A stretch of 33,682 nucleotides of DNA. It comes from a virus. The position numbers and the translations under genes are program-made. Shown here one piece after another: positions 2,170-21,152 of the stretch (within the stretch, counting starts at the first letter, position 1; each line of letters starts with the position of its first letter). Below the pieces are notes generated by a model. That model made no database searches and was not told where the DNA came from. It saw only the letters and a list, made by a program, of their open reading frames with translations. Location: IMG/VR virus record IMGVR_UViG_3300043446_004487, positions 1 to 33,682 of that record, one strand, 5' to 3'.

Positions 2170-2620
2170 GTGGTACGAGGTGAGCCGCGCCGCGCTGGTG
2201 GGCGTCTCGCGCAACGTCGAGGCCCTGCGGCGTGGACTGCAGAACCGGATGCAGATCAACGACGAGTGGTCGATCCATATTCTCGGAGCTCTCGGGGAGT
2301 GTGCTTTCTGCAAGGCGACCAACCGCTACTGGTCGGCAGGAGTGAACACCTTCAAGGGCGGGGATGTTGGAGACAGCATCCAGGTCCGCACTCGCTCTCG
2401 TCACGACTACGACCTGATCGTCCGCGACGGCGACAAGGACGCGGACGTCTTCGTCCTCGTGACTGGCGGGCCGACAGAGTTCGCCGTTCACGGGTGGATG
2501 CTCGGCCGTGATGCCAAGCAGCCGAAGTACCTGGCGAACTACGGGAAACACGGAGACGCGTTCTTCGTTCCGAAGAGAGATCTCAACGACGCCGCTGCCC
2601 TTGTCTGTGGAGACAACTGA
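2153..2620 (+). CDS. Predicted PD-(D/E)XK-like nuclease or nuclease-derived protein, 155 aa
   Basis: ATG 2153 has AGGAGGG nine bases upstream, inside the end of the previous gene. The order E49 (LGALGEC), D71/D74 in GGDVGD, then Q77-V-R79 followed by a conserved-looking beta strand (DADVFVLV) resembles the core of a PD-(D/E)XK nuclease. The usual E-x-K is Q-x-R here. That may be an active variant or an inactivated one. The stop overlaps the next ATG. Confidence 0.6.
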   Translation: MNVNLEWYEVSRAALVGVSRNVEALRRGLQNRMQINDEWSIHILGALGECAFCKATNRYWSAGVNTFKGGDVGDSIQVRTRSRHDYDLIVRDGDKDADVFVLVTGGPTEFAVHGWMLGRDAKQPKYLANYGKHGDAFFVPKRDLNDAAALVCGDN

Positions 2621-3135
2621 TGAACAAGACCACGATGCAGACCTACACCGGAAAGCTTGTCGACCTCGCGAACTTCAAGCCGGAGGACGTTCGTCTGCCC
2701 GACATCTCCCACGCCCTGTCGATCATCAACCGATTCACGGGCCACTCGAAGTGCCCGTACTCGGTGGCCCAGCACTCCGTCGCCGTGAGCAAGCTGACGC
2801 CTCCGGCGCATGCCATGTGGGGCCTCATGCACGACGCGTCGGAAGCCTATCTCGGTGATGTTGCGACTCCGCTGAAGTACATGCTCCCTGACTACCTGGA
2901 GCTGGAAGAGCACGTCCAGAAGACCATCGCAAAAGCATTCGCGCTGAAGTGGCCCATGCCTCCGGAGGTGAAGCGCGCCGACACGGCTGCGCTCATGGCT
3001 GAGAAGCGCGACCTGATCGCGGTTGACCACGACTGGGGTATCTCCTGCGAGCCGATGGCCGGGCCGGTACTTCCATACTCATGGTTCCAGGCAAAGAAGT
3101 TGTTCGAAGATAGATACAAGGAGATTGCGGAATGA
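2620..3135 (+). CDS. HD-domain phosphohydrolase (YfbR/DatZ-like), 171 aa
   Basis: The HD metal site is complete: H52 (VAQHS), H71-D72 (LMHDASEAYLGD) and D121 (KRADTAAL). Length and motif spacing fit the YfbR-like 5'-deoxynucleotidase or dNTP-phosphohydrolase family that many phages carry. The dATP triphosphohydrolase DatZ of 2-aminoadenine (Z-DNA) phages also belongs here. The gene immediately downstream is a MazZ-like pyrophosphohydrolase, so the pair probably shapes the dNTP pool. Starts at a stop-start overlap at 2618-2622. Substrate is not determinable from the sequence. Confidence 0.88.
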   Translation: MNKTTMQTYTGKLVDLANFKPEDVRLPDISHALSIINRFTGHSKCPYSVAQHSVAVSKLTPPAHAMWGLMHDASEAYLGDVATPLKYMLPDYLELEEHVQKTIAKAFALKWPMPPEVKRADTAALMAEKRDLIAVDHDWGISCEPMAGPVLPYSWFQAKKLFEDRYKEIAE

Positions 3136-3488
3136 AGTCAACGGATGAGTCGCGTGTGCGGTACGAGACGGGTGCAGTTCGGTCCTCCGATGCGGAGGCT
3201 ACGAGGTACGACCTGATCAGTCCGATCGGACTGGCGGCGGTTGCTGCTGCGTGCGCAGAGGGCGCGGAGAGATATGGCGATTTCAACTGGGAGAAGGGGA
3301 TGCCAGCGTGCGACCTCATCAACCACGCACTGCGGCACGTGTACCTGTTCCTCTCGGGCGATCGCTCGGAGGACCATCTCGGGCACGCCGCCTGGAACAT
3401 GCTCGGAGCGATCCATTCCCTCGAGGTCTGGCCGGAGATCAACGAGGGAACCCTGAGGTCCGGCTTCTGCGAGCCACCAACCAAATGA
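3132..3488 (+). CDS. dATP/dGTP pyrophosphohydrolase-like protein (MazZ/DUF5664-like), 118 aa
   Basis: Residues 24-90 match the phage dATP/dGTP diphosphohydrolase pattern: ATRYDLISP, EGAERYGDFNWEKG, then HALRHVYLFLSGD and HLGHAAWNMLGAIH. These all-alpha NTP pyrophosphatases bind metal through Glu and Asp residues in the paired helices. In Z-genome phages, MazZ makes the dGMP used by PurZ and removes dATP. Related proteins also occur in phages with normal DNA. It overlaps the HD gene by 4 bases (ATGA), indicating coupled expression. No purZ is seen in this window. Confidence 0.78.
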   Translation: MKSTDESRVRYETGAVRSSDAEATRYDLISPIGLAAVAAACAEGAERYGDFNWEKGMPACDLINHALRHVYLFLSGDRSEDHLGHAAWNMLGAIHSLEVWPEINEGTLRSGFCEPPTK

Positions 3489-6958: not shown

Positions 6959-7495
6959 ATGCGACCGATGACGGACAAGGAGCGCGCGCTTGCGGAGGAG
7001 GCTATGGCCATAGTGCCGGTAGTCATCAATGCGATGCACCGGTCGTTTCCTGGAATCAAGAGGAAGCTGGCGAGGATAGATGCAAGGTCGGTTGCGTACG
7101 TGGCTGTCTGCCGGGCAACGCAGACGTACGATCCAGAGAAGAGTAAGGTCACCACCTATTTCTCTTCTGCCATTCGCAATGCCTTGCTGAAAGAACTGGC
7201 GAGAAGCCAGAGGTTGAGATACGACAGCCCCGAGCGGGTGCCGCTTGAGATGGCTGAGAGGTCGGCGTCACGCCAGGGCGGCCAGCAGCGTGCACTGCCA
7301 GCCGCCCTGAGCGTTTTGCCGACGGGCGACCGCGCCCTGATCGCGAGTCGATTCCACGAGGGGATGTCCATCCGAGAGATGAGCGTCCACTACAGGATCA
7401 ACGAGAAGACGATCAGGCTACGCCTTCGCCGAGCCGTTGCCCTACTTGCAGAGATTTTGGGAAGCCCGCTTCCGCCGCAAGAACCGCGCGCCTAG
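6959..7495 (+). CDS. Sigma-70-family RNA polymerase sigma factor-like protein, 178 aa
   Basis: Residues 45-80 fit sigma region 2 (YVAVCRATQTYDP, SKVTTYFSSAIRNAL, the aromatic-rich promoter-melting helix). Residues 110-165 fit region 4: a LPTGDRALIASRFHEG segment, then IREMSVHYRINEKTIRLRLRRAV as the -35-binding helix-turn-helix. SD AAGGA precedes ATG 6959. The gene is the last of the rightward operon, so it may turn the host polymerase toward phage promoters. Its last 83 bases overlap, antisense, the end of the recombinase gene. Confidence 0.82.
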   Translation: MRPMTDKERALAEEAMAIVPVVINAMHRSFPGIKRKLARIDARSVAYVAVCRATQTYDPEKSKVTTYFSSAIRNALLKELARSQRLRYDSPERVPLEMAERSASRQGGQQRALPAALSVLPTGDRALIASRFHEGMSIREMSVHYRINEKTIRLRLRRAVALLAEILGSPLPPQEPRA

Positions 7496-8162
7496 CTGTG
7501 TTGCGGTTCCATTCGCGCCCGTTGGGCCTCCTGGTGCCGCGCATCTGAGCGACGATTCTGTCGTAGCTCCAGCCCGCAGCACGCAGCCCGACCATTGTGA
7601 AGATTTGGTCGCGCTCCTTTTGATCCGGCCAAAACCGGCCGAGCTTTCCAGTGCCAATCTTCCGCCAGCCGAACGGGACTCCGGAGTTGTATGGCAACCC
7701 GGCTTCCCGCTTGGCCGTCAGGGCGTCGCGTGTCCGCTCCCCGATGCAGTCCTTCTCGAATTCGGCAAAGCCGATCTCGATGGTGGAGATGAGCTTGCTG
7801 ATGGCAGTGTCTCTGCCATGCTCCCTGCCCAGGCTGTGAACACGGACGCCCTTGCTGGCCAGCATGGAGAGCGTCTTGATACCGTCCGCAGTATTACGGA
7901 AGGCCCGATCGAGCTTGGCCCAGACGATATGATCGCCGGGCTGCACGAGCGCCCACAGGACTCTGCCCTGTCCGCGCTCGAACATATCGGACCCGCCACT
8001 GACTGCGGAGTCGTACATCCACCCGCCGTACCGGAACTTCGACAGCTCGGGGTGCGAGGATATGTAGTCCTCGACCTTCGTGCGCTGTGCCGTTTCGGTC
8101 AGGCCTTGCTTGGAGGTGGAGTGTCGGCCGTATCCGTAGACGGTGGGACCGGAACGTGACAT
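7413..8162 (-). CDS. Serine recombinase (resolvase/invertase family), 249 aa
   Basis: The N-terminal catalytic domain has the nucleophile S15 in YGRHSTSKQG and the segment VWAKLDRAFRN (78-90), where Arg residues and the LDR motif are typical. GFAEFEKDCIGERT (131-144) is the start of the long E helix. Residues 155-249 include a GVPFGWRK segment and a short DNA-binding recombinase domain. It is much shorter than the large phage integrases, nearer to resolvase/invertase size. Start ATG 8162 has AGGAGGT more than 20 bases upstream, so the start is uncertain. A role in integration, inversion or resolution of concatemers is open, and no attachment site is seen. Confidence 0.85.
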   Translation of the reverse strand: MSRSGPTVYGYGRHSTSKQGLTETAQRTKVEDYISSHPELSKFRYGGWMYDSAVSGGSDMFERGQGRVLWALVQPGDHIVWAKLDRAFRNTADGIKTLSMLASKGVRVHSLGREHGRDTAISKLISTIEIGFAEFEKDCIGERTRDALTAKREAGLPYNSGVPFGWRKIGTGKLGRFWPDQKERDQIFTMVGLRAAGWSYDRIVAQMRGTRRPNGREWNRNTARRAVLAAEAGFPKSLQVGQRLGEGVA

Positions 8163-8359
8163 ATCGAAATCGGCTCTGGGACCGACCTCCTGTAAAAGGA
8201 AATATCTCCAGCGTCCATCCGCCTCTGTAGCTCCGAGAACAGCATGCCATGGATGATATCCTGCGCACTGTCGCCCCAGACATCCTGGCCCTGCCTGGCC
8301 CCGAAGCTGTCGGGAAGTTCGGCCGTGAACCACACGCGAGCTTCGATCTGCATCTTCAC
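8099..8359 (-). CDS. Hypothetical protein, 86 aa
   Basis: The GTG at 8357-8359 overlaps the stop of the upstream gene (GTGA) and has GGAGG six bases before. The in-frame ATG 8353 is the alternative start. The protein begins with a beta-type segment (IEARVWFTAEL) and ends with a Pro/Thr-rich tail. It overlaps the recombinase start by 64 bases. No family recognised. Confidence 0.65.
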   Translation of the reverse strand: MKMQIEARVWFTAELPDSFGARQGQDVWGDSAQDIIHGMLFSELQRRMDAGDISFYRRSVPEPISICHVPVPPSTDTADTPPPSKA

Positions 8360-10046: not shown

Positions 10047-11405
10047 TCAGAAAAGGGGGATGGTCTTGCACCAAGCCGGGATGCTGTCCCGGTAACTACT
10101 GTCACAGGTCAAGGCAACGATCACCTTTGCCCTGGTCTGCCGGTCAGGCCAGCCGGTCATCGCGTCAGTGATGAGCACGATGGAGTCCGGATGGTCGGAC
10201 TTGTCAACTTCCTCGAGCGCCCGTGCCATGTCGGTGCCGCCACCGCCTTCCCATTGGAAGTTCTTGATGTCCGCGAGCTTGATGCTGTTGCGGACATGGG
10301 TGTCGGCACACACAACCTTGACGCTCTTGAGCTTCTTCAGCCCGTCAGCGATCACCTGAAGGGCCTGCTCCTTCGTCTCGCGATCCCCCATAGATCCGGA
10401 GGTGTCGACGATGACAACCGCACTGGCCTGCGTCGTGAGCTGTCCGCGCAGGCGACACACGTCAGGAGGCTGCTTGCGAGACAGCCTCCTGTACGTAGCC
10501 ATCCTGCCGCCCAGCGGCGACGCGGTGGAACTTGCGACGGCACTCTTGAGGTGCTGCCATGGGTCCCGCTGCGGACGCAGGAAGTGGCCGATCGCCTCGC
10601 GGAGCTTGCCCGGCACGGAGCCGGGATGGCTTTCCTCGAACTTGGCAATCGACTCTTCCAGCTTCTTGGCAGTGAGGGATTCCTTGTAGCTGTCCCAGGA
10701 GTCGTCCGGCTTCTCGTACTCGCGCTTCCTGTTGTCGCACGCAGACCCTCCGCTGCCGGGAGCGCATGCCGCAGCCTTGCCGTTCGGCTTGGTCTGCGAG
10801 CCCTTCTTCCCGCTGGAGGACTGCGGTCGAGAATCGGAGACACGCGAAGAACTTCCGCCGCCGCCGTCACTATCCGCCTGATCGTCCCCGCCGCCGGCGT
10901 CGCCCTGCTTGCGATTCCCTCCCCCGCCGTTGCCGTCGGGGCGCGGAACCGCATTCATGATGAGCTTGTAGTACTCGATCATGTCGAGGTTCTCGGGGAA
11001 CGCCAGGAAGATACCGAGCTGCGGGGCGAACGCACCGAGATGCACCGCACTCGGCGGACGCAGATGGCGCATGAACGCCATCGTCTGCTCGATGACGAGG
11101 TCGCCTGCGACGTTCATCACGAACTGCTGGAACTGCGACGGGTTGTCGCCGTAGACCTCAGCCGACCGCGCGTGATGGCGGAAGATGAGGTGCAGTGCCT
11201 CGTGAAGGATGACGTATGCCAGGCTGTCCGCATCGAGCTCGTCCACGAACGCGGGATCCCAATGGATCACACCGTCTCTGCTCACTCCGCAGGTGGCCGA
11301 GCCCTTCGACTCGTTCTGCTTGAGTGAGTAGATGTAACTCGCCAGGTACGGGGCGTAGTCGAACGTGCGAATACGACCCGCAGCGAGCTTGTCACGTGGT
11401 GTCAT
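10047..11405 (-). CDS. Putative metallopeptidase (DUF2201-like) plus VWA-like domain protein, 452 aa
   Basis: The N-terminal domain has HEALH at 68-72 in VILHEALHLIFRH and a downstream NVAGDLVIEQ segment, the pattern of DUF2201 putative metallopeptidases. Residues 153-235 are a low-complexity Gly/Ser/Asp linker. The C-terminal VWA-like domain has an intact metal-ion site: DTSGS at 334-338, T391 in GGGTDM, and D414 in ITDAMTGW. VWA proteins of this type act as partners of MoxR-type AAA+ ATPases, and one is encoded two genes upstream (11776-12900). Together they resemble a MoxR-VWA remodelling machine of unknown substrate. Confidence 0.88.
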   Translation of the reverse strand: MTPRDKLAAGRIRTFDYAPYLASYIYSLKQNESKGSATCGVSRDGVIHWDPAFVDELDADSLAYVILHEALHLIFRHHARSAEVYGDNPSQFQQFVMNVAGDLVIEQTMAFMRHLRPPSAVHLGAFAPQLGIFLAFPENLDMIEYYKLIMNAVPRPDGNGGGGNRKQGDAGGGDDQADSDGGGGSSSRVSDSRPQSSSGKKGSQTKPNGKAAACAPGSGGSACDNRKREYEKPDDSWDSYKESLTAKKLEESIAKFEESHPGSVPGKLREAIGHFLRPQRDPWQHLKSAVASSTASPLGGRMATYRRLSRKQPPDVCRLRGQLTTQASAVVIVDTSGSMGDRETKEQALQVIADGLKKLKSVKVVCADTHVRNSIKLADIKNFQWEGGGGTDMARALEEVDKSDHPDSIVLITDAMTGWPDRQTRAKVIVALTCDSSYRDSIPAWCKTIPLF

Positions 11406-11415
11406 GCTGACCTTT

Positions 11416-11760
11416 CTAGTTGGAGGAAAACTCAGGGGCCGCCGTCCGGTCGTGGGAGAAACGCTCTGCCACGATCACCGCACAGGTGATGACGTCGCCG
11501 ATTGCTCGTGCGACCGCCTCCCTGTTGGGGCCTTCGAGGAGGTCGGGATCGCCCACCTCTTCGGCAGCCCACTTCAACGACAGCGCCGACACCTGAGCCA
11601 CGCCCGTGAACAGGAGGCGCAGTCTGTCGGTGAACGAGTCGGGCAGCTCGCCGCCGCCGGCGATCTCCTGGCAGCACTCGCGCAGCACGACCATCGCCTT
11701 CTCCAGGCAGCGCTTGCGGAACTCGGGGTTGTCGTGATTGTCACGGTCTTCGAACATCAT
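11416..11760 (-). CDS. Hypothetical protein within the ATPase-VWA cluster, 114 aa
   Basis: ATG 11760 has AAGGAGGT at ideal distance. The product appears all-helical with two Cys and an acidic first 15 residues. It lies between the AAA+ and VWA genes with gaps of only 10-15 bases, so it is very likely cotranslated with them. Its position suggests an accessory factor of the same complex. No family recognised. Confidence 0.7.
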   Translation of the reverse strand: MMFEDRDNHDNPEFRKRCLEKAMVVLRECCQEIAGGGELPDSFTDRLRLLFTGVAQVSALSLKWAAEEVGDPDLLEGPNREAVARAIGDVITCAVIVAERFSHDRTAAPEFSSN

Positions 11761-11775
11761 GGTGACCTCCTTGTG

Positions 11776-12900
11776 TCACTTGGTTTCCGAGATGCCAGCC
11801 GGGACCAGCTTCATGAGCCGGTTGAGCAGGGCAGTCGGGGGAGTCCAGCCGTCAGGGCGAACGCCGCCCTTCGACACCGGATTCCAGAGGGACTTGAACT
11901 GAGTCAGGAACGTCTCGATCTCGTGCTCGCCCACGTCGCAGAAGACGCTGGCTGCCTTGATCCAGCGCTCGCTCGTCGGGTTGCTGCGGAGCTCGCGAAC
12001 GAGACCCGTCAGCAGGCAGATGTTGCGGTCGGGACGGTTCTCGTACTTGTACTTGACCGCGCCCTCGAGCAGCTCCGCCGGGTTTATGAGGTCGAGCTGC
12101 GACATGTACTGCAGGAACTCGCTGCCCGCCGCGTCGCCGACGCAACCGGTGACGAGCTTGCGGAACACGACGCCGCCGTGCTGGTAGCCGACCGACTCCG
12201 CAGCGGAGAGAACCTTGACGACGTAGCTCCACGTTCTCGGGTTGGGGAACGAGAGCGTCTCGTCGCTTTCGGGCAGCTTCTCCATCACGTCCGGGTTGCT
12301 ACGCAGGAAGGCCTCGACCAGCCCGCCGTACTTGGGGTACAGCTGGCGGTGGTCTTCGGGAACGACGGGGAACGGAGGCGCCTCCCACTGGAGGCCGTTC
12401 CGGTACCCCTTGAACAGCTCGCTGCGGTCGACCTCCCACCGGTAGTGGAAGAACCGCGAGCGCATCGATGGCGGCAGCGCGTTGCCGCTCGGAGCGAGCT
12501 CCGGCGGGTTGGCAGCAGCCACGATGATGGTCGACTCGGGCAGCGTGTAGTCGCCCACTCGCCGCTCCGTGATGAGCGAGAGCTCTGCGGCCATCGTGGT
12601 CGGCGGCACGCAGGTGAACTCGTCCAGCAGCAGGAACCCCGAGCCGTCCTTGAACTTGTCGACCCACTGCGTGGGCATCATGCGGATGACGCCGAGCTCT
12701 CGGTCCGCATCCGGGTAGCCGGAGAAGTCCTCCGGCAAGTGGGTGCTACCGATGAGCAGATGGAAGTTGCGCTTGAGCGCACCCGCCAGCTGTCCGAGCA
12801 CGGTCGTCTTGCCGACGCCGGTCCCTCCCCAGACGATGGTGGGCACAACCTGCAGGGCAATGAAGCACGGCTCGTTCGCGGTCTTGATTGAATCGGACAT
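11776..12900 (-). CDS. MoxR-type AAA+ ATPase, 374 aa
   Basis: Walker A is GGTGVGKT at 25-32, Walker B FLLLDE at 89-94, sensor 1 N131 in VAAANPPE, and likely arginine fingers at R147/R149 (MRSRFFHYRW). The early THLPEDFSGYPDAD segment is typical of MoxR/CobS-like ATPases. The frame is open to 12960 but crosses a terminator. ATG 12900 with AGGAGAT is the start. It probably works with the VWA-metallopeptidase protein and the 279-aa protein encoded just upstream. Confidence 0.88.
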   Translation of the reverse strand: MSDSIKTANEPCFIALQVVPTIVWGGTGVGKTTVLGQLAGALKRNFHLLIGSTHLPEDFSGYPDADRELGVIRMMPTQWVDKFKDGSGFLLLDEFTCVPPTTMAAELSLITERRVGDYTLPESTIIVAAANPPELAPSGNALPPSMRSRFFHYRWEVDRSELFKGYRNGLQWEAPPFPVVPEDHRQLYPKYGGLVEAFLRSNPDVMEKLPESDETLSFPNPRTWSYVVKVLSAAESVGYQHGGVVFRKLVTGCVGDAAGSEFLQYMSQLDLINPAELLEGAVKYKYENRPDRNICLLTGLVRELRSNPTSERWIKAASVFCDVGEHEIETFLTQFKSLWNPVSKGGVRPDGWTPPTALLNRLMKLVPAGISETK

Positions 12901-12935
12901 TCGTTTCGATCTCCTGACAAAGGGTGAAAAGAAAA

Positions 12936-12953
12936 CGGGGGCCGAAGCCCCCG
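12936..12953 (-). terminator. Intrinsic terminator upstream of the AAA+ gene
   Basis: Read on the minus strand, a 7-bp all-G/C stem (12936-12942 with 12947-12953) with a UUCG tetraloop is followed by TTTTCTTTTC. This is a textbook intrinsic terminator placed about 35 bases before the next start codon. Confidence 0.82.
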
Positions 12954-12954
12954 C

Positions 12955-12990
12955 ACACAAGGAATCGCCAGCCCCTGAAAACAGGGGTCA
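12955..12990 (-). repeat. Stop-hairpin-GGCGATT element, copy G
   Basis: Read on the minus strand, the stop TGA (12988-12990) is followed directly by CCCCTG-TTTT-CAGGGG, then the GGCGATT box (12963-12969) and a T/G-rich end. Compared with copies D and F, one stem pair has changed on both sides (T-A to C-G), keeping the pairing. The terminator at 12936-12953 follows at once. Confidence 0.8.
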
Positions 12991-13827
12991 AACACTGGCA
13001 GACAACAGGGAGCTCACGGCCAGGGCGGACTGCGCGGCTTCGAGTGGCCCGCGCATCCAGTCGAGCTGCTGGCCGAGCGCAGCCTCGTAGGACTTGATCT
13101 TGTCGATCACCGCACGGCTCGCCTTCGCCAGCGCCTTCGCCGCTTTGGGCGTGAGGTCACCGGACTCGACGGCCGACTGCACTCGCTGCGACGTTTCGGA
13201 AACCTCAACGTTGAGCTGCGAGATGATATGTTCGACGGTCGCAGGATCCTGCGCCGCCTCGAGCGGGAAGTTGTGGTACCGCCACAGCTGCGCCGCGTCA
13301 CGCCACTGCTGCCACTTGTTCACGCTGGCGTGAGGAATGTAGTAGACATTCCTGCCGCCGAGCGCGACCCCTCCGAGCATCCGGACCACGCCCTGCACCG
13401 CCGTCTGCACCTGCCCGGCGGACAGGTTGTTGCGGTGCGTGTCGTACTGCAACTGGACGCTGGCGAGGGTAACCCCTGCGTCGAGGTCCGCGTGGCAGTC
13501 GAGCAGCGCCACCTTCTCTGCCCCGTCGAGCTGGGCGGAGAAGATATGCAGGGCCGTGTTGCGCTTCTGCCCACGCTGAATTCGCACGGCCTCGAAGGCG
13601 AGGTCCTGCGTCAGCGCTCTGACAGAGAGGCTACTGTCGTCATCCCGGAACAGCGGCTTGGCCACTTCCCGCACCGCCGCGTCGAGCGCGTGGCTCTTCG
13701 AGGGCGGTCGGTTGACCACCTTCGTCCAGCCGTTGGCGTCGCACGCGTTCTTGATGAGGTCGCGCGAGTGAGGGGCGTTCGTTCCGAAGACCAGAGCCGC
13801 AGTTCCCTGAATCTGAAGTGAGACCAT
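12988..13827 (-). CDS. Hypothetical protein of the ATPase-VWA cluster, 279 aa
   Basis: ATG 13827 has AAGGA upstream. The N-terminal part is beta/alpha (VSLQIQGTAALVFGT). The middle contains a basic PPSKSHALDAAVREVAKPLF segment, and the C-terminal 100 residues form long helices (EVSETSQRVQSAVESG, LTPKAAKALAKASRAV) that may be a coiled coil. It stands where phage MoxR-VWA clusters often have an extra helical companion (similar in placement to DUF3150/DUF6744 proteins). I cannot assign it to one of these with confidence. Confidence 0.75.
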   Translation of the reverse strand: MVSLQIQGTAALVFGTNAPHSRDLIKNACDANGWTKVVNRPPSKSHALDAAVREVAKPLFRDDDSSLSVRALTQDLAFEAVRIQRGQKRNTALHIFSAQLDGAEKVALLDCHADLDAGVTLASVQLQYDTHRNNLSAGQVQTAVQGVVRMLGGVALGGRNVYYIPHASVNKWQQWRDAAQLWRYHNFPLEAAQDPATVEHIISQLNVEVSETSQRVQSAVESGDLTPKAAKALAKASRAVIDKIKSYEAALGQQLDWMRGPLEAAQSALAVSSLLSASV

Positions 13828-13851
13828 CTTTGGGTCCTTTCTGTGTGAAAA

Positions 13852-13897
13852 GCAGGCGGGCCGCAGCCAGGGATAAACCCCAGTGCGGCCCGCCTGC
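13852..13897 (-). terminator. Long terminator-like hairpin upstream of the 279-aa gene
   Basis: A perfect 14-bp stem pairs 13852-13865 with 13884-13897, with a small inner GGG/CCC pairing in the loop. On the minus strand it is followed by TTTTCACAC. A second hairpin (7 bp, loop GTAGT) lies just upstream on the transcript, at about 13916-13934. Confidence 0.75.
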
Positions 13898-13943
13898 CGG
13901 GAGGTGTACTGTTGTACAGCACTACGCTGTACGAATCCAGCGA

Positions 13944-14180
13944 CTACGTGTCGATCATCAACTCCCAACGGTCGGCGATTTCCATGCAGCGGAACTGATG
14001 CTCCGCTGCCATTGCCGCGTCGGCGTCCGACTCGTACGACCCGCGTGGCTTCGGGTCACGGTCGTCGGACAGAAGAAAGAAGAACCGTCCGCTCACGCCG
14101 AAGACGTGGCCGATCGGACGGCCATCCATCAGGACCGGACTGACTGATGCGTCGGTGGTCGACGCGTTGTTGCTGGCCAT
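13944..14180 (-). CDS. Hypothetical protein, 78 aa
   Basis: ATG 14180 has GGAGGTGT upstream. The frame is open beyond it, but that would run through repeat copy F. The product has a Ser/Thr-rich first 15 residues, a beta segment (GHVFGVSGRFFFLLSD) and an acidic-aromatic end. Reads like a small beta/alpha protein. Function unknown. Confidence 0.7.
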   Translation of the reverse strand: MASNNASTTDASVSPVLMDGRPIGHVFGVSGRFFFLLSDDRDPKPRGSYESDADAAMAAEHQFRCMEIADRWELMIDT

Positions 14181-14236
14181 TTGACACCTCCCTAACTGGT
14201 GGCTTTCGCCTGCCGCACCGGACGTTCCGCTGCGAT

Positions 14237-14272
14237 CTACAGGTAATCGCCGGCCCTTGAAAACAAGGGCTA
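14237..14272 (-). repeat. Stop-hairpin-GGCGATT element, copy F
   Basis: The minus-strand stop TAG (14270-14272) runs into CCCTTG-TTTT-CAAGGG, followed by GGCGATT (14245-14251) and ACCTGTAG. The stretch 14237-14274 is identical over 38 bases to copy D at 15398-15435. No classical terminator follows here; only a weak hairpin-rich spacer leads to the next SD. Confidence 0.85.
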
Positions 14273-14443
14273 TTTGCGCCGGCCCCTCAGGCCGGCCAGG
14301 AACTTGCTGATCGCCAGGTACAGGCAGCACGCTGCCGTCACCTGCTCAGGGGAATGGCGGACGTACTCAGCCAGGTGCAGGCAGACGCTCCATACCTGGC
14401 CGACCGACTCCGCCATCCGCAGGAAGTCGAGGTCGTGTTTCAC
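14270..14443 (-). CDS. Small hypothetical protein, 57 aa
   Basis: GTG 14441-14443 overlaps the stop of the upstream gene (GTGA), and an AGGAGGGG purine stretch lies 5 bases before it inside that gene. The frame has strong G/C third positions and stops exactly at repeat copy F. The product is helical (HDLDFLRMAESVGQVW, AACCLYLAISKFLAGL) with a basic C terminus (RGRRK). Too short for most gene callers, but coupling and codon use support it. Function unknown. Confidence 0.72.
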   Translation of the reverse strand: MKHDLDFLRMAESVGQVWSVCLHLAEYVRHSPEQVTAACCLYLAISKFLAGLRGRRK

Positions 14444-14628
14444 GACTGCCCCTCCTGCTTCGAGTCGACGTTGGACTTCATGTTGTGCACGAAGTCAGCG
14501 AACGACCGCATCGCATGCGGATCGCTCGAGCGGTCTCTGATGAGCTCGGCCACCTCAGTGGACGGGGCGTCGAAGATCGAGGCCACTTCGGACATGCGAA
14601 CGAACTGCATCGGACGATCGGAACCCAT
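14440..14628 (-). CDS. Small hypothetical protein, 62 aa
   Basis: ATG 14628 has GGAGGTGT at good distance. The product is a short helical protein with a VASIFDAPSTEVAELIRD centre and a Lys/Gln-rich end. It is translationally coupled to the 57-aa gene downstream. No family recognised. Confidence 0.7.
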   Translation of the reverse strand: MGSDRPMQFVRMSEVASIFDAPSTEVAELIRDRSSDPHAMRSFADFVHNMKSNVDSKQEGQS

Positions 14629-14651
14629 GAGACACCTCCTGAAAAAAAGAA

Positions 14652-14676
14652 AGCCGGCGCCACGCTGGCACCGGCT
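14652..14676 (-). terminator. Intrinsic terminator upstream of the 62-aa gene
   Basis: An 11-bp stem with one mismatch (14652-14662 with 14666-14676) and a 3-base loop is followed on the minus strand by TTTCTTTTTTTC. It is closely similar in sequence to the hairpin at 16460-16483. Confidence 0.85.
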
Positions 14677-14677
14677 G

Positions 14678-14711
14678 CACTGGGAATCGCCGACCCTGGA
14701 AGTCAGGGTCA
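14678..14711 (-). repeat. Stop-hairpin-GGCGATT element, copy E
   Basis: The minus-strand stop TGA (14709-14711) forms part of the 7-bp stem GACCCTG/CAGGGTC with loop ACTTC. The GGCGATT box is at 14685-14691. The stem sequence differs from other copies at several positions, always on both sides. Confidence 0.8.
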
Positions 14712-15074
14712 GTCAGAACACGAATCGAGGAGAGGAGCCACGTGCTCCCACGCCTCCAGCTCGGCGAGCTTGTCCCGCACCTGATCGAAAGCCCGGGAGA
14801 GATCGAGGAGCTTCATCCTCTGCCGGGCCTCGCCGAGAGAGATCCGAGCTACCGCGATCTGCCTCCGAGCCGCGCCCTTTGGCGTGTCATCGGGGTCGGA
14901 GAATGCCATCGCAGCCTTCTCTACCGTTTCCGCGAACCCGCACGCCGGCTTCACGGCCATGTTGTAGAACGTGCCAGCAAGCAGGTTCAGCTCATCGTGC
15001 AGCTGATCCAGCCGGGCGTAGTACTCCTGCGCCCGCGCTGCCTGCTGCGTCGTCACCGGTTTCACCGACTCCAT
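14709..15074 (-). CDS. Hypothetical helical protein, 121 aa
   Basis: ATG 15074 lies 13 bases inside the end of the GIY-YIG-like gene, with AAAGGG before it. The protein looks all-helical with heptad-like stretches (EYYARLDQLHDELNLL, ARISLGEARQRMKLLDL, DQVRDKLAELEAW). Its end, PLLDSCSD, resembles the ends of two neighbours (PLLDASPE and RLLFASPEGE), which may mean common ancestry. Function unknown. Confidence 0.7.
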   Translation of the reverse strand: MESVKPVTTQQAARAQEYYARLDQLHDELNLLAGTFYNMAVKPACGFAETVEKAAMAFSDPDDTPKGAARRQIAVARISLGEARQRMKLLDLSRAFDQVRDKLAELEAWEHVAPLLDSCSD

Positions 15075-15379
15075 ACCAGGAACCCTTTCGTTCTGAGGGA
15101 CTCAGCCAGGTCGCGCTCGGCCTGCTCGGCCGACTCACGCGTCTGGTACTCGACTCCGTCGGACAAGTGCTGGGCGAGGCGGAGTCCGAACCGCTCGACC
15201 CAGCCGCGATTGCTGAACACGCCAGCCTTGTGCTGAGCGAACCGGTGTTCAGGGGTGTGGGCTGTGCTTCCGACGTACAAGCACCGCCCGCTTCGGGAAC
15301 GATTGGCCTTGCGGAAACGTCCGCTGTTCCGCACGGCGGGATCCAACTCGACCACGTACAAACGAAACGTGTGCCGCAA
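15062..15379 (-). CDS. GIY-YIG-like nuclease-domain protein, 105 aa
   Basis: The TTG start at 15379 is supported by AGGAGGTG eight bases upstream and by the absence of an ATG. LYVVEL near residue 7 and CLYVGST at 33-39 match the two strands of a GIY-YIG core. R46 in EHRFAQHKAG follows at the right spacing, and a later Glu (ESAEQAERDLAESL) could be the metal ligand. It is a single-domain protein of minimal size. It might be a free-standing endonuclease or a repair-type nuclease. Confidence 0.72.
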   Translation of the reverse strand: MRHTFRLYVVELDPAVRNSGRFRKANRSRSGRCLYVGSTAHTPEHRFAQHKAGVFSNRGWVERFGLRLAQHLSDGVEYQTRESAEQAERDLAESLRTKGFLVWSR

Positions 15380-15397
15380 GGGGCACCTCCTTTCTGG

Positions 15398-15433
15398 CTA
15401 CAGGTAATCGCCGGCCCTTGAAAACAAGGGCTA
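15398..15433 (-). repeat. Stop-hairpin-GGCGATT element, copy D
   Basis: The minus-strand stop TAG (15431-15433) is followed by CCCTTG-TTTT-CAAGGG and GGCGATT (15406-15412). Identical to copy F over 38 bases. The downstream SD (AGGAGGTG) lies only about 11 bases after the element, with no terminator between. Confidence 0.85.
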
Positions 15434-15745
15434 TTCGGGGGACGCGTCCAGCAGCGGCTCCACGTCAAGCTCGGCCAGCGCATTGCCCACGTACAGCTCG
15501 ACGTGCTTGAGCTCGTCGATCACACGGGCCCGGTAATCCAGCAGGTTGCACTGCAGGATCTCGAGGTCCGCCTTCGCCCTGCGCGCCGCAGTAGTCCCCG
15601 CAGGCGAAGTCAGTCGCGGCATCTTCTGAGTGAAGATGTACCGCTCGTCGATCGCGTTCGTCAGGCACGTGATCGCGCACTTGAGGTTTTCGGCGTGCTT
15701 GAAGGCTTTGTTCAGGACCTTCAGACGCTCGTCGATCCAGGACAT
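15431..15745 (-). CDS. Hypothetical helical protein, 104 aa
   Basis: ATG 15745 has AAGGAGAG upstream. Predicted long helices (DERLKVLNKAFKHAENL, ADLEILQCNLLDYRARVIDELKHVELYV) suggest an all-alpha fold. A short basic loop in the middle carries PRLTSPAGTTAARR. Ends PLLDASPE immediately at the repeat element. Function unknown. Confidence 0.7.
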   Translation of the reverse strand: MSWIDERLKVLNKAFKHAENLKCAITCLTNAIDERYIFTQKMPRLTSPAGTTAARRAKADLEILQCNLLDYRARVIDELKHVELYVGNALAELDVEPLLDASPE

Positions 15746-15746
15746 C

Positions 15747-15995
15747 TCACTCTCCTTCTGGTGAAGCAAACAAAAGCCGGTCGAGCTTGAGCGCCACGCC
15801 CAAGTCATCTAGTCGGCCGGCGATTTCGAAGAGCTCCTTGCGAAGCTCGCGGTAACTCCAGTCCGCGCCGCCCATGTCGCGGCCACCTACCTGGACCTGA
15901 AGATCGAGCAGCAAGTCCGTGAAGTGCGAACACTGCGCGAGCAATACTTCGGAAGGCAGGCGGGATTCCGTGCCGTCCATTAGGTGTCTGTTCAT
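15747..15995 (-). CDS. Hypothetical helical protein, 82 aa
   Basis: ATG 15995 overlaps the upstream stop (ATGA). ATG 15980 is an alternative start. The sequence is helical (HFTDLLLDLQVQV, SYRELRKELFEIAGRL) and ends LLFASPEGE one base before the next gene's start. Possibly related to the 104-aa neighbour through its C terminus. No family recognised. Confidence 0.65.
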   Translation of the reverse strand: MNRHLMDGTESRLPSEVLLAQCSHFTDLLLDLQVQVGGRDMGGADWSYRELRKELFEIAGRLDDLGVALKLDRLLFASPEGE

Positions 15996-16432
15996 GCGGG
16001 CCACACGTACGGCAGGGTGTCGGGCTCGGTCCAGTTGTGACGCAGGTAGTAGTCCGGGTCTTTGCGCAGCAGATTGCTGCGGTGGGACCTGTGCACGTAG
16101 TCGTCGCCGAGCCAGGGCGGCGGGCTGTGCGAGCGGCGGAGAAACGCGACTGCCGCAGCGATCTGGAACTGCCGGAGCAGCGTGTCGCGAAAGCCGCGAC
16201 GGCGCCATTCCAGGCAGCACGCAATGGCGTACAACAGGAGGCAGAACTCGTGGCCGCGCCACATGCGAACGGCGGGGTGATTGGCCCACGCTTTGGACTT
16301 GGCTGCACCGCCAACGTGCAGGCCGAGAGCTCGGGCGATCTGCTTGCACTCGACGCGTTGCTTACCGAGTCGCTTGTTGTCGAGCGCACGGGCCGACATG
16401 GCGAAGTCGGGATACGGCAGGAACGTTTGCAT
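15992..16432 (-). CDS. Pyrimidine-dimer DNA glycosylase family (Pyr_excise-like) protein, 146 aa
   Basis: ATG 16432 has GAGGT upstream. The start MQTFLPYPDFAMSARALD, then NKRLGKQRVECKQI and WANHPAVRMWRGHE, follows the MSMEG_6728-type branch of the pyrimidine-dimer DNA glycosylase family related to T4 DenV. T4 DenV uses its N-terminal Thr after Met removal; here residue 2 is Gln, so activity on UV dimers is uncertain. The frame is open to 16600 but crosses a terminator. Confidence 0.75.
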   Translation of the reverse strand: MQTFLPYPDFAMSARALDNKRLGKQRVECKQIARALGLHVGGAAKSKAWANHPAVRMWRGHEFCLLLYAIACCLEWRRRGFRDTLLRQFQIAAAVAFLRRSHSPPPWLGDDYVHRSHRSNLLRKDPDYYLRHNWTEPDTLPYVWPA

Positions 16433-16459
16433 GGATACCTCCACGAAAAGAGAAAGCCG

Positions 16460-16483
16460 GCCGGCGCCAACGTGGTCACCGGC
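16460..16483 (-). terminator. Terminator-like hairpin upstream of the glycosylase-like gene
   Basis: An imperfect stem pairs 16460-16469 with 16473-16483, and the minus strand continues with GGCTTTCTCTTTTC. Its GCCGGCGCCA arm is shared with the terminator at 14652-14676. The sequence between it and the TAG at 16498 (CCCTTTGTTTGCAGG) looks like a decayed copy of the stop-hairpin element, without an intact GGCGATT. Confidence 0.7.
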
Positions 16484-16497
16484 CTGCAAACAAAGGG

Positions 16498-16908
16498 CTA
16501 GATGAAGCGCTTGTGCCCTGTCGTCATCGCCTCTACCTCGCCAGGTACATCCACTTCGCTCCAGTTGCCGTCGCGAACGCGGAACATCCAGTCCTGCCAC
16601 TCGACGTAGCCGGGAGGAAGTGGAGCCCAGCCATCTTCGCGATCATCGGGGCACCAGTGCGTCACCTCTTCGGTGCTGCAGTTGCCGCCACCGCTGCTGA
16701 ACTGGTAGCAGGATCCAGAGAGGATCCACCACCGCGCGTCTCGTTCTGTAGGTGGCACGCGAACCTCGTTGCCCTCCTCGTCGCACGAAACCCAGTGCGT
16801 CAGCTCCTGGTAGTGGTACGTGCCGCGCCACAGTCCCAGGATGCCGAAGTACCACACCTTCTGCCCGCTCTCGGGCAGTCGGTCACTGCAAAGAATCCAT
16901 CCGCTCAT
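16498..16908 (-). CDS. DUF551-like protein, 136 aa
   Basis: ATG 16908 has GGAGGTG upstream. The first 18 residues (GWILCSDRLPESGQKVWYF) follow the W-x-x-x-x-x-RLP pattern of DUF551, and a later HWCPDDREDGWAPLP fits the family's W-x-PLP end. DUF551 proteins are common in phages and have no known function. The product is rich in Trp and Tyr and is probably a small beta protein. Confidence 0.65.
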   Translation of the reverse strand: MSGWILCSDRLPESGQKVWYFGILGLWRGTYHYQELTHWVSCDEEGNEVRVPPTERDARWWILSGSCYQFSSGGGNCSTEEVTHWCPDDREDGWAPLPPGYVEWQDWMFRVRDGNWSEVDVPGEVEAMTTGHKRFI

Positions 16909-16934
16909 GTGCGCACCTCCAGTTCCCTGCTGCA

Positions 16935-16999
16935 CCGGTTCCAACGGGGCATGGATGCCGGCCCAGCGTGCAGCCAGGCCGGCGACCGCAACCCGTCAG
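16935..16999 (-). repeat. Second intergenic element type, copy 1
   Basis: On the minus strand it begins with the stop codon in TGACGGGTTGCGGTCGC, then a stem GCCGGCC/GGCCGGC, then ATCCATGC and CCGTTGGAACCG. The same flanks with a different stem are found at 17361-17425. It separates the 112-aa gene from the DUF551-like gene. Confidence 0.78.
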
Positions 17000-17334
17000 T
17001 CGCGAGAGACCCACTGGTCCCCGTACATCGGAGCCATCTCCTCAGGCACCGAAGCAAAGATGCCAGGAGAGGTCTCGACCACTTCGTATCCGCGACACGA
17101 GAGGGTCATATGAATCACGCCAGCTCGGGGGTCCTCCTTGTCTCGCGACTCGACGGTGAGGCACTGGCCCGGCTCGAGCTTGGCGTAGCCATCGAGATAC
17201 GCGTCGGCATCCTTCAGGCTCGCGAACATCGCCACGATCTGCAGTGAGCCCCGCTCCTCAGGGCTGGGCCCGTTGTGCCGAAGCAGCACGGCGTACTCCG
17301 GCAGGGGCAGCAGGGTCATTTCGTCGTCGCACAT
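16996..17334 (-). CDS. Hypothetical protein, 112 aa
   Basis: ATG 17334 has AAGGAGGTG upstream. The sequence is beta-rich (EYAVLLRHNG, GVIHMTLSCRGYEVVE) with a helix ASLKDADAYLDGYAK, giving a compact alpha/beta look. The stop is part of the second element type. No family recognised. Confidence 0.7.
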   Translation of the reverse strand: MCDDEMTLLPLPEYAVLLRHNGPSPEERGSLQIVAMFASLKDADAYLDGYAKLEPGQCLTVESRDKEDPRAGVIHMTLSCRGYEVVETSPGIFASVPEEMAPMYGDQWVSRD

Positions 17335-17360
17335 AACACACCTCCTTCGTCACATCTGCG

Positions 17361-17425
17361 TCGGTTCCAACGGCGCATGGATGCTGGCAGTTAGTCACCT
17401 CCTGCCAGCGACCGCACCCCGTCAG
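17361..17425 (-). repeat. Second intergenic element type, copy 2
   Basis: On the minus strand: stop-containing TGACGGGGTGCGGTCGC, stem GCTGGCAG/CTGCCAGC, then ATCCATGC and CCGTTGGAACCG. Flanks match copy 1 nearly base for base, while the stem differs on both arms and still pairs. Confidence 0.78.
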
Positions 17426-17838
17426 CGCACTTCGGCGCTCGTCAGCACGCTGGGAACGTCGTTGCCCAGATCCTTCAGCCGCGTCAGCAGCTGGGCGTGG
17501 CGGTACCGCACGTCGTTGAGCTCGGCGCTCGAGACGGACAGCTTTTCGCCCATGTCGCGGATGATGTTCTCCGCACCGGAGAACAGGTCACGCTGGTGGG
17601 CGAGCTGGGCCTCGCTATCTGCGAGCTGCCTGCGGACGTCGGCCAGCTGCTGCTGCAGCGACTGCACCTCGACGAGGTGGTTCGCCGCAGAAGCCGCCTC
17701 GCGGGCCGGCGCGTCGACGTAGTAGAAGACGGCCGGGAGCGAGCGGCGTGCCGCGTCGCGGATCTCGTTGCGGTACACGCCGCACACGACACCGAACACG
17801 ACAGCCACGAGAATCAGCAGGTCACGGAACTTGAACAT
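17422..17838 (-). CDS. Membrane-anchored coiled-coil protein, 138 aa
   Basis: ATG 17838 has GGAGGTGT upstream. Residues 7-22 (LLILVAVVFGVVCGVY) are one transmembrane span, followed by about 30 basic/aromatic residues and then a long coiled coil with Gln/Leu heptads (LVEVQSLQQQLADVRRQL, LNDVRYRHAQLLTRL). The layout is like a spanin-type or Rz-like envelope protein, but no partner is recognised, so the role stays open. Confidence 0.7.
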   Translation of the reverse strand: MFKFRDLLILVAVVFGVVCGVYRNEIRDAARRSLPAVFYYVDAPAREAASAANHLVEVQSLQQQLADVRRQLADSEAQLAHQRDLFSGAENIIRDMGEKLSVSSAELNDVRYRHAQLLTRLKDLGNDVPSVLTSAEVR

Positions 17839-17858
17839 GGGACACCTCCACAGAAACT

Positions 17859-17902
17859 CCCGACCTCCCCGCCGGCTGAGTGCCGACTGAGAGGGAGGCG
17901 GG
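17859..17902 (-). terminator. Terminator-like hairpin upstream of the coiled-coil gene
   Basis: Pairs 17859-17862 with 17899-17902 and 17864-17869 with 17893-17898 around one bulged base. The minus strand continues AGTTTCTG, a weak T tract. It follows repeat copy C by about 30 bases. Confidence 0.6.
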
Positions 17903-17934
17903 AAATGCGGTGAGGTGGGGTGCCCTTTGACCTG

Positions 17935-17970
17935 CTACAAGTAATCGCCAACCCTAGAAAACAAGGGGTT
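17935..17970 (-). repeat. Stop-hairpin-GGCGATT element, copy C
   Basis: CCCTTG-TTTT-CTAGGG (one mismatched pair) followed by GGCGATT (17943-17949) and ACTTGTAG on the minus strand. Unlike other copies it does not touch a called stop codon: the nearest called stop lies about 80 bases upstream, at 18049-18051. Confidence 0.75.
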
Positions 17971-18048
17971 TTTGACGATCCAGGATTCCACCCAGCCCGC
18001 AGGCGACTGGGCGGTATCGCGGGCCGTCCCGACGTGGATGGCGTCGGG
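17971..18048 (-). other. Coding-like stretch after an amber stop; no separate gene
   Basis: In the frame of the upstream gene, codons continue past TAG 18049-18051 without another stop until TAG at the end of repeat copy C (37 codons). Third positions are mostly G or C, and no start codon is available. Directly after the TAG a perfect 7-bp hairpin CCCGACG/CGTCGGG occurs. This may be the remnant of a once longer gene or a read-through extension. Confidence 0.4.
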
Positions 18049-18300
18049 CTACGAGATGCGCTCACTGCACTGAGCGATCTCCAGGTCGTCCTTCTTGAGC
18101 TCGTCGAACATGCCGTCCGGATTGAACGGGCACCAGATCTCGGCGTGATCCCATGCCGTCCAGCCGCCGGGCGCGATTCGCGGCTTGAGCTCTTCGATAT
18201 GGGCATTGAGCCACGCACGAGCCGCGTCGTTGGTTTCGAAGGGCCCGAACACGGCGGAGTTGCACTGCTGCTCGTAGCTAGGAACGACAATCACCCACAT
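18049..18300 (-). CDS. Hypothetical protein, 83 aa
   Basis: ATG 18300 has AAGGAGGTG upstream. It begins with a beta strand (MWVIVVPSYE), followed by a helix of FETNDAARAWLNAHIEEL. The middle contains WTAWDHAEIWCPFNPDG. The order strand-helix-strand suggests a small alpha/beta domain. It ends with TAG and a following hairpin, and the frame remains open beyond the TAG (see 17971-18048). Confidence 0.68.
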   Translation of the reverse strand: MWVIVVPSYEQQCNSAVFGPFETNDAARAWLNAHIEELKPRIAPGGWTAWDHAEIWCPFNPDGMFDELKKDDLEIAQCSERIS

Positions 18301-18381
18301 AGCCCACCTCCTTCAGGAAAGGGAACCTGCCCTCATCAGTCACCGCCTCACGGTGAGACCGGCCGGAGCCGGTTTCGGGCT

Positions 18382-18489
18382 TCAGTCGAGGAGCGAGGCA
18401 AACGCCTCATAGATCGCACCGAACACGATGGCCATGACGGCGCACAGGATCAGGCTCATCGACACCATCCACAGCGTGAACACGAACAT
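18382..18489 (-). CDS. Tiny membrane protein, 35 aa
   Basis: ATG 18489 has GGAGGTGTCCC upstream, the same ribosome site as the coiled-coil gene at 17838. The 35 residues are nearly one hydrophobic helix (LWMVSMSLILCAVMAIVFG) with a short acidic end. It stands alone between a terminator (18519-18552) and a hairpin-rich spacer (18301-18381), as other genes of the array do. Too short for most gene callers. Function unknown. Confidence 0.68.
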   Translation of the reverse strand: MFVFTLWMVSMSLILCAVMAIVFGAIYEAFASLLD

Positions 18490-18518
18490 GGGACACCTCC
18501 CTTGTGCCGGGAAAAGAA

Positions 18519-18552
18519 AGAGGGCCAGCGGTCCGGCAGCCGCTGACCCTCT
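18519..18552 (-). terminator. Intrinsic terminator upstream of the 35-aa gene
   Basis: A 12-bp stem with opposed C and A (18519-18524 with 18547-18552, 18526-18531 with 18540-18545) is followed on the minus strand by TTTCTTTTC. It begins as soon as repeat copy B ends. Confidence 0.82.
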
Positions 18553-18583
18553 ACAAGAAATCGCCGGCCCTAGAAATCAGGCC
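18551..18583 (-). repeat. Stop-hairpin-GGCGATT element, copy B
   Basis: The minus-strand stop TGA (18577-18579) lies inside the hairpin region (GGCCTGATTTCTAGGGCC), with shorter, imperfect pairing than in other copies. GGCGATT at 18559-18565 and the TTCTTGTAG end are intact. Confidence 0.72.
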
Positions 18584-18903
18584 ACTTTCGCGACCTTTGC
18601 GTTGCCGTTCTTGGCGGCCGCCTTCCGCGCCTTGATCTCGCGCATCTTGGCCATATGGGCGAGCATCTGCTCGTGGCGACGCTGGACCTGGTCCATAGCG
18701 TTCACCGCCTCGCAGAGAGCCGACACCGTCTGCTGGGTGGCGGCCAGGTCAGACGCATCCGCGCCGGTGGCCTCAACCCATTCCACGCGATCCCAGAGCT
18801 TCTCCACGCGGAACCACAGCCGCATGAAGACCGCAGTCACTCCAATCCCGGCCGCAGCCTGAACCAAAGAGATCCAGTTGGCCGAGACGAAAGAGAGATC
18901 CAT
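18577..18903 (-). CDS. Membrane-anchored helical protein, 108 aa
   Basis: ATG 18903 has TTTGGAGGTG upstream. Residues 10-28 (ISLVQAAAGIGVTAVFM) form a membrane span. A coiled-coil-like segment follows (FRVEKLWDRVEWVEATG, VSALCEAVNAMDQVQRRHEQM). The last 25 residues are Lys/Ala-rich. Type I-like orientation is possible. It resembles small phage envelope proteins but cannot be named. Confidence 0.7.
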   Translation of the reverse strand: MDLSFVSANWISLVQAAAGIGVTAVFMRLWFRVEKLWDRVEWVEATGADASDLAATQQTVSALCEAVNAMDQVQRRHEQMLAHMAKMREIKARKAAAKNGNAKVAKVA

Positions 18904-19018
18904 GACAACACCTCCAAAGGAGAACGGGCCAACGAGAGATCTCTCGCTGCAAGAACCCGCCTGCAAAGACGCAGGAGCTCACCCAGAGACCGAAGTCACT
19001 GGGCGGCCTCGCGCGTCC
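18904..19018 (-). promoter_or_regulatory. Hairpin-rich spacer
   Basis: On the minus strand this spacer holds CCCAG-T-GAC-TTCG-GTC-T-CTGGG (UUCG loop), then CTGC-GTCTTT-GCAG, then a palindrome CGAGAGATCTCTCG shortly before the SD. There is no clear T tract and no GGCGATT box, so this junction differs from the others. Confidence 0.5.
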
Positions 19019-19234
19019 TCAGAGCAGCTCATCCAAGTCGATAGGCGGCAGCTCGACATGCCCACACTCCACGCAGACGTTGGCCGGAAGCACCAAGTCC
19101 TGAAGAGAGCGGTTGACGAACCAGAGCTTCAGCCCGTAGAGCTGAGGCTCGGACATGCCAGCCAGTCGATCGCAGGGAGCCAGAGAGAGCAGCGCGTAAG
19201 AACCGCGCTCATCGCGCGTCTCACGCAGGAGCAT
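19019..19234 (-). CDS. Hypothetical protein, 71 aa; first gene of the leftward block
   Basis: ATG 19234 has GGAGGTTT upstream. The protein contains one CxxC (CVECGH) near its end, preceded by beta-type residues (YGLKLWFVNRSLQDLVL), and an acidic last helix (PPIDLDELL). It lies closest to the divergent intergenic region and so is likely the first translated gene of the leftward transcript. No family recognised. Confidence 0.68.
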   Translation of the reverse strand: MLLRETRDERGSYALLSLAPCDRLAGMSEPQLYGLKLWFVNRSLQDLVLPANVCVECGHVELPPIDLDELL

Positions 19235-19533
19235 GGCGAAACCTCCACGCCAGTCAGTCCGCAGTCACTTGCTGCGGTTGCTGCTGACACAGAGAATCGC
19301 CAGGCCTTGAAAACATGGGGCGAAACGAGGGTGGGTCGACAACAGGTAGGGACCTTGCTCGACCCCTCCGCACGGGTAGGTTCCAACTCGTGTTACGCAA
19401 GTGCCGCAGTGGCGCGGGGTTGCGGCGCGGCCTTGACCCCACCCCTGAGGCCCCCAATCGCGCGCGAACCTATATCAGGTGCCCCCCCTGGATTTTTTCC
19501 TCAAAAACATCGACCCGTACCCACAAAACAGGC
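19235..19533. promoter_or_regulatory. Divergent intergenic region between the leftward and rightward blocks
   Basis: Promoters for both directions are expected here, yet I find no clean -35/-10 pair. Visible parts are: a hairpin CCGCAG/CTGCGG (19259-19277) in the leftward leader; repeat copy A; a long hairpin GGGTCGA/TCGACCC with an inner AGGT/ACCT stem (19333-19365); a GGTTCCAAC motif at about 19379-19387, also seen in the second repeat type; and a TATATC sequence at about 19471. A weak hairpin followed by six Ts lies at about 19475-19498 on the plus strand. Confidence 0.5.
19295..19320 (-). repeat. Stop-hairpin-GGCGATT element, copy A (leader copy)
   Basis: Minus strand CCATG-TTTT-CAAGG (one mismatch), GGCGATT (19295-19301), then CTCTGTGTC. 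It lies in the leader of the first leftward gene, not after a called gene, so the element can exist without an upstream stop codon. Confidence 0.72.
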
Positions 19534-21028: not shown

Positions 21029-21152
21029 CGCCCATGGCCGCTCGCAGTCCAGGGGGTGTTTTTGCCGTTTCCTGCCACGAACCCGCAGCCGAAGCAGAAC
21101 GGCGTCAGGTTGCGGGGGACTGCGGGCGGCTTGGGTGCCAAAGGAGTGGCGC

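Follow-up and report, generated by a model that had tools for sequence, protein, structure and literature searches.

A repeated gap element in one operon of an uncultured phage, a candidate promoter for the phage's own sigma factor

The early region of the actinophage phiC31 contains several phage-specific promoters and terminators, and the put sites of HK022 and the nut sites of lambda, which are few per genome, contain a stem that is under structural selection. Here we describe a repeated element of 32 bases that precedes most gene groups of one leftward operon in a virus record of a public collection (IMG/VR record IMGVR_UViG_3300043446_004487; 33,682 bases, all of which were analysed and are called the window below), probably an incomplete viral genome. 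No description of the element was found in the open-licence literature. The best-supported reading, which we consider on balance probable, is that its copies would serve as promoters for the phage's own sigma factor.

PhiC31 is a cultured phage whose record (NC_001978, L091; L and G numbers are our own designations) annotates a sigma factor, gp12. Its motif CCCGGGTTGCCGACTCCCTTAC, which we take to be the known phage-specific early promoters, is found at 21756, 22663, 23028, 25050, 27580, 29903, 31186 and 36219, with near-matches at 18485 and 12974. As in the window phage, the repeats of the early region lie on the coding strand, before gene 1 and in gaps; eight copies are 50-72 bases ahead of start codons, three touch the previous stop codon and others are close to it. 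This shared layout is one of the reasons to read the window copies as promoters, although the motif sequence differs, the two phages are unrelated by ATPase or sigma searches, and gp12 is a sigma factor by record annotation. The put and nut sites are similar to the element in being hairpin-containing sites in the leader and ahead of terminators, but structural selection on the stem is not seen for the window element (see below). In phiEco32 and 7-11, well-conserved intergenic repeats have been proposed as promoters of a phage-encoded sigma factor, as is done here for the window, but the motif is short (TAATGTATA in phiEco32), with six sites, other hosts and no array ahead of nearly all gene groups of an operon (PMC4331800). 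The stoperators of cluster A mycobacteriophages are asymmetric and dispersed, like the element, but they are found genome-wide and are bound by the immunity repressor, whereas the window element belongs to one operon (PMC9283540).

The element and its relatives

In the window, the pattern TYCHRGGNYYGGCGATTNYYWGTR is matched seven times, whereas 100 shuffles gave no match (Table 1). All seven minus-strand copies listed in a preliminary description of the locus were found, each with the box GGCGATT; copies D and F are, as reported there, identical over 38 bases (AATAGCCCTTGTTTTCAAGGGCCGGCGATTACCTGTAG), and the copy called decayed, at 16484-16500, is a truncated remnant without the box. The general conclusion of that description, a dispersed, strand-specific, cis-acting control element with a promoter among the readings listed, is thus supported, while several particulars hold for some copies only. 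The stop codon, described as touching or lying within the hairpin, abuts the stem in D, E, F and G and is present as TGA in the loop of B, but copy A follows no gene: it sits in the operon leader ahead of gene 1 and not, like the others, in a gap, so that gene-end placement is not general. The stems, said to keep pairing, are perfect in D, E, F and G and need mismatches or a shifted register in A, B and C; the second box, NCYTGTRG, is exact in B, C, D and F and has no exact match in the other copies. Finally, GGCGATT is invariant within this phage, but not among the relatives described below.

The MoxR-like ATPase alone, used as the first relative search, gave no relatives; a later alignment gave 34 loci. 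At least six uncultured phages (G001, G002, G005, G007, G009 and G011), the close group, carry the same element at equivalent positions, with GGCGATT, GGCGAGT or GGAGAAC as the box. A weak match in L032 (18.1 bits, E 0.039) has a GGCAATG box whose assignment is only probable. A model made from 30 distinct copies found no convincing copy outside the operon in the pieces searched, and Rfam scans (in the window, E up to 1) returned no family matching the element. Among cultured phages, no close relative of the sigma factor or of DUF6744 was found. Bacterial genomes were considered as carriers and rejected, since an exact pattern scan gave one copy each in four unrelated genomes, which we read as chance, as we do the single copy in L063.

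A second, distant group, in which the ATPase is more diverged (mostly 55-61% identical), carries at gene ends the motif TTC-CCGCTGC-GGAGTCT, in 198 instances of which 167-168 are distinct. In the nine records searched, all copies are on a single strand and in a single region, apart from scattered one-mismatch matches. The spacing TTC-N7-GGNG is common to both groups, and because the TTC-N7-GG spacing is identical we infer that the two motifs belong to one family.

Placement, predicted start and the phage sigma factor

If the copies are promoters, each would most likely be read by the host core RNA polymerase together with the ECF-type (extracytoplasmic function) sigma factor encoded at 6959-7495. 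The -10 side would correspond to the right block (GGCGATT, or GGCGAGT, GGAGAAC or GGAGTCT in the relatives) and the -35 side to the left block, CCCYTG and then the T-tract TTTTC, and transcription would start at a conserved purine 12-14 bases beyond the box's first G. Each early-gene group would have its own start signal, placed in the little space left after the preceding stop codon, and a hairpin would open the new transcript, in several gaps doubling as a terminator-like structure for the upstream gene. We infer the promoter role, the sigma factor as reader and the location of the start from the comparisons that follow; this reading was chosen after the data had been viewed, and neither the start-site signature nor the sigma comparison was predicted beforehand.

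The first argument is that the distance of the box is tied to the downstream gene. In the leader copies of the window, L022, L026 and L061, which have no gene upstream, the box is 66-68 bases from gene 1, and since this distance is kept without an upstream gene, the leader copies favour the view that the element belongs with the downstream gene. Ahead of other genes, the distance is mostly 62-84 bases. For distant-group copies, the upstream stop codon usually lies 7-26 bases before the first base of the box, and a start codon that has a ribosome site mostly follows 62-87 bases after that base; distances of 9-15 in this group involve, on our reading, mostly false start codons. Three distant copies (L058 2565, 6221 and 7255) lie within a reading frame or right at the end of one, which is allowed for promoters.

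The same placement bears on a quite unlikely alternative, namely that the copies are DNA sites for a repressor, operators or stoperators as in mycobacteriophage L5, which would block initiation or elongation in lysogeny. The inverted repeat CCCYTG-N4-CARGGG of the close group and the single orientation relative to transcription would suit such sites, a serine-recombinase-like gene (7413-8333) suggests a temperate phage, and known stoperators are asymmetric as well as genome-wide (PMC9283540). The element, by contrast, is limited to one operon, stays at a constant distance from the start codon that follows and lacks the inverted repeat in the distant group; no repressor gene turned up, although no search was aimed at one.

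The second argument for promoters is a pyrimidine-purine step at a fixed distance. Among the 168 copies of the distant group, counting from the box start, 90% have a pyrimidine at position 13 and 93% a purine at position 14. The step is seen largely also without a hairpin: the values are 94% and 97% where a hairpin follows and 79% and 85% where none is detected. Close-group copies have the step at 12/13 or 13/14.

The third argument comes from the candidate reader. A single sigma ortholog is present in each of the 15 genomes tested (12 relatives, the window, G001 and G005): blastp finds full-length orthologs, one per genome, in the 14 genomes other than the window (44-70% identity), TIGR02937 scores above its cut-off in 12/12 relatives, and a profile of the 15 orthologs matches solved ECF sigma factors. 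Between the groups, region 2 is 66% identical, whereas the recognition helix of region 4 shows 82% identity among members of the distant group and only 33% between groups. The divergence of the helix parallels that of the motif, whose box changes little and whose left half changes much. For a phage RNA polymerase, the large proteins tested gave no match in Pfam, PHROG or NCBIfam, and searches with single-chain polymerase motifs gave one stray match only. Promoters of the sigma-70 consensus were not found in the operon, though host promoters may differ from that consensus, and a sigma-54-like reading (TGGC-N-TTG) was rejected, its spacing being unfit and the motif absent from the distant group. 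Promoters are further favoured by the lack of covariation in the stem (see below), by the common TTC-N7-GGNG spacing and by the restriction of the copies to one operon and one strand.

Several points weigh against promoters. The would-be spacer is conserved (AGGGGYY in the close group, CCGCTGC in the distant one), the distance between the blocks is about 2 bases short of that of ordinary ECF promoters, and the model leaves the close group's inverted repeat unexplained. The predicted start coincides in several gaps with the beginning of a hairpin that has a T-rich tail, so that the transcript might terminate at once. A start codon is at +11/+12 for one close copy (L033 6196) and for one gene of the distant group (L058 2565), which calls for leaderless transcripts or for a start slightly further upstream. 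Moreover, the parallel between helix and motif could result from shared descent alone, and other promoters might be the ones that the sigma factor serves. If the copies are nevertheless promoters, they would provide a candidate promoter code for a sigma factor carried throughout a family of uncultured phages, and would explain the separate expression of many small early genes in a compact operon; the 15 sigma orthologs and about 200 candidate sites would make a natural data set for the co-divergence of sigma factor and promoter.

Stem pairing and following hairpins

Two-sided changes in the stem had been taken in the preliminary description as pointing to selection on RNA structure, a claim for which it had itself named absent covariation as the refuting outcome, and this is what was found. 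Among the 30 distinct copies, which are related and not independent, 88.3% of the cells of the six-pair stem are paired versus 87.2% in shuffles, and 2 cells are changed on both sides versus 2.7 in shuffles, in a test that has little power where the stem arms do not vary. Since pairing and two-sided changes are at the shuffle level, the stem is kept mostly as sequence. In the distant group, a stem is not obvious, and the sole repeat that holds generally is a short CCG/CGG one. Before a short inverted repeat and some matching changes in it are taken as evidence of RNA structure, covariation should be counted against controls.

This result weakens, though only in part because the stem arms of the close group hardly vary, the distinctly improbable idea that the hairpin matters and makes the element a new kind of regulator: either a repeated RNA by which the RNA polymerase is re-armed, wherever genes adjoin, to pass terminators, or a promoter whose recognised form is a hairpin of DNA. 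It also bears on processing or stability of the RNA, for which the element would be an untranslated site where a nuclease or RNA-binding protein cuts or binds, comparable to hammerhead ribozymes. Processing of these transcripts is plausible because other gaps of the operon contain type II hammerhead-like sequences, both in the window and in L022, L026 and L033, but covariation is absent and cleavage at the distant in-frame copies would cut coding sequence; the RNase processing site proposed in the preliminary description is weakened by these copies inside reading frames, and we consider it very unlikely.

A hairpin starting between +11 and +22 follows 22/35 copies of the close group and 119/167 of the distant group, the close-group counts being approximate since they include near-identical copies and one false positive of the loose pattern (L023, GGAAAAT). 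Control windows were mixed, high at -25 to -14 and low at +45 to +56, and the enrichment of hairpins after the element is only suggestive. A T-rich tail is present on 19/22 of the following hairpins in the close group and on 38/119 in the distant group. These hairpins are relevant to the suggestion that the element is an antiterminator RNA or loading site of the nut or put type, a transcribed hairpin and box recruiting a factor or acting on the polymerase directly to cause read-through. The element is strand-specific, one copy is in the leader and others are directly ahead of terminator-like hairpins, and most copies of the close group could form a stem of 6 bp. Against it, covariation is absent, a terminator is not behind every site (copies C and D, the leader copies and the distant in-frame copies), the hairpins after copy F and in the leaders have no T-run, and only 38/119 distant hairpins have the tail; moreover, nut and put sites are not known to recur at almost every gene group. 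On these grounds the antiterminator, already put forward in the preliminary description, seems unlikely.

Other features of the operon and of the window

Table 1. Copies of the element and associated features in the window. Scores come from the model built from these same copies and are not independent evidence; the score of the sigma factor is for TIGR02937.
Feature	Position	Strand	Box GGCGATT	Predicted start	Score (bits)	Remarks
Copy A	19289..19323	-	19301-19295	~19288	36.6	Leader of gene 1 (ATG 19234)
Copy B	18553..18587	-	18565-18559	~18552	34.9	TGA stop of upstream gene in loop
Copy C	17937..17971	-	17949-17943	~17936	42.3	ATG of next gene at 17838, 111 bases on
Copy D	15400..15434	-	15412-15406	~15399	46.5	Precedes GIY-YIG-like gene (TTG 15379); no terminator after
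Copy E	14679..14713	-	14691-14685	~14678	30.9	Followed by terminator-like hairpin
Copy F	14239..14273	-	14251-14245	~14238	46.5	Followed by weak hairpin without T-run
Copy G	12957..12991	-	12969-12963	~12956	44.0	Followed by terminator-like hairpin; precedes ATPase gene
Eighth, truncated copy	16484..16500	-				Stop-fused CCCTTTGTTTGCAGG, no box; GC hairpin immediately after; missed by the 30-copy model
Terminator-like hairpin after copy B	18519..18552	-				13 pairs, T-rich tail; begins at predicted start of copy B
Terminator-like hairpin after copy E	14652..14676	-				11 pairs, T-rich tail
Terminator-like hairpin after copy G	12935..12954	-				8 pairs, T-rich tail
Leader stem GTCAGCAGCAACCGCAGCAAGTGACTGCGGACTGAC	19253..19288	-				Directly after copy A; kept in leaders of five relatives
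MoxR-like ATPase gene	11776..12900	-				Next after last copy (G); query for finding relatives
ECF-type sigma-70-family factor	6959..7495	+			51.5 (cut-off 42.9)	178 amino acids; Pfam regions 2 and 4; proposed reader of the element

Type II hammerhead-like sequences are found in gaps of the same operon, most of them touching a stop codon, at 18321-18380 (-) in the window, 18873-18932 (-) and 19131-19190 (-) in L026, 3951-4010 (+) in L022, and 2322-2381 (+) and 2697-2762 (+) in L033. Their Rfam scores are 26-31 bits and do not reach the gathering score of 37, and L033 2697 was spotted by eye; the stems vary between phages, with pairing kept in the alignment. Chiefly these sequences show putative RNA-level control near the element.

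The gaps contain further conserved sequences. A second repeated element, TGACGG...hairpin...GCCGTTG with a loop that is often GAGGTGACTAA, is at 17345-17424 and 16918-17000 (-) in the window and at 18396-18470 and 17755-17834 (-) in L026. The element GCGAGGCCGCCCAGTGACTTCGGT...CTGGG...CCTGCG...GCAGG, possibly a structured RNA, is at ~18955-19020 (-) in the window, ~3189-3245 (+) in L022 and ~3351-3415 (+) in L033, and GTACAGCGTAGTGCTGTAC...GTACACCTCCCGG, partly kept in L022 and L026, is ahead of a terminator-like hairpin at ~13902-13932 (-) of the window, in a gap without the 32-base element. Upstream of copy A, the block GGGAAAAAAATCCAGGGGGG (~19440-19530, -) is kept in the divergent gap of six phages and is maybe a promoter or an origin.

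The region 10047-12900 (-) contains the MoxR-like ATPase, which has distant similarity (~25%) to the ATPases of N4-like phages, and a DUF2201 VWA/metallopeptidase neighbour. Outside these genes, a CyVA-1 RNA (RF02965) is found at 21044-21123 (+), with 52.4 bits against a gathering score of 41.4.

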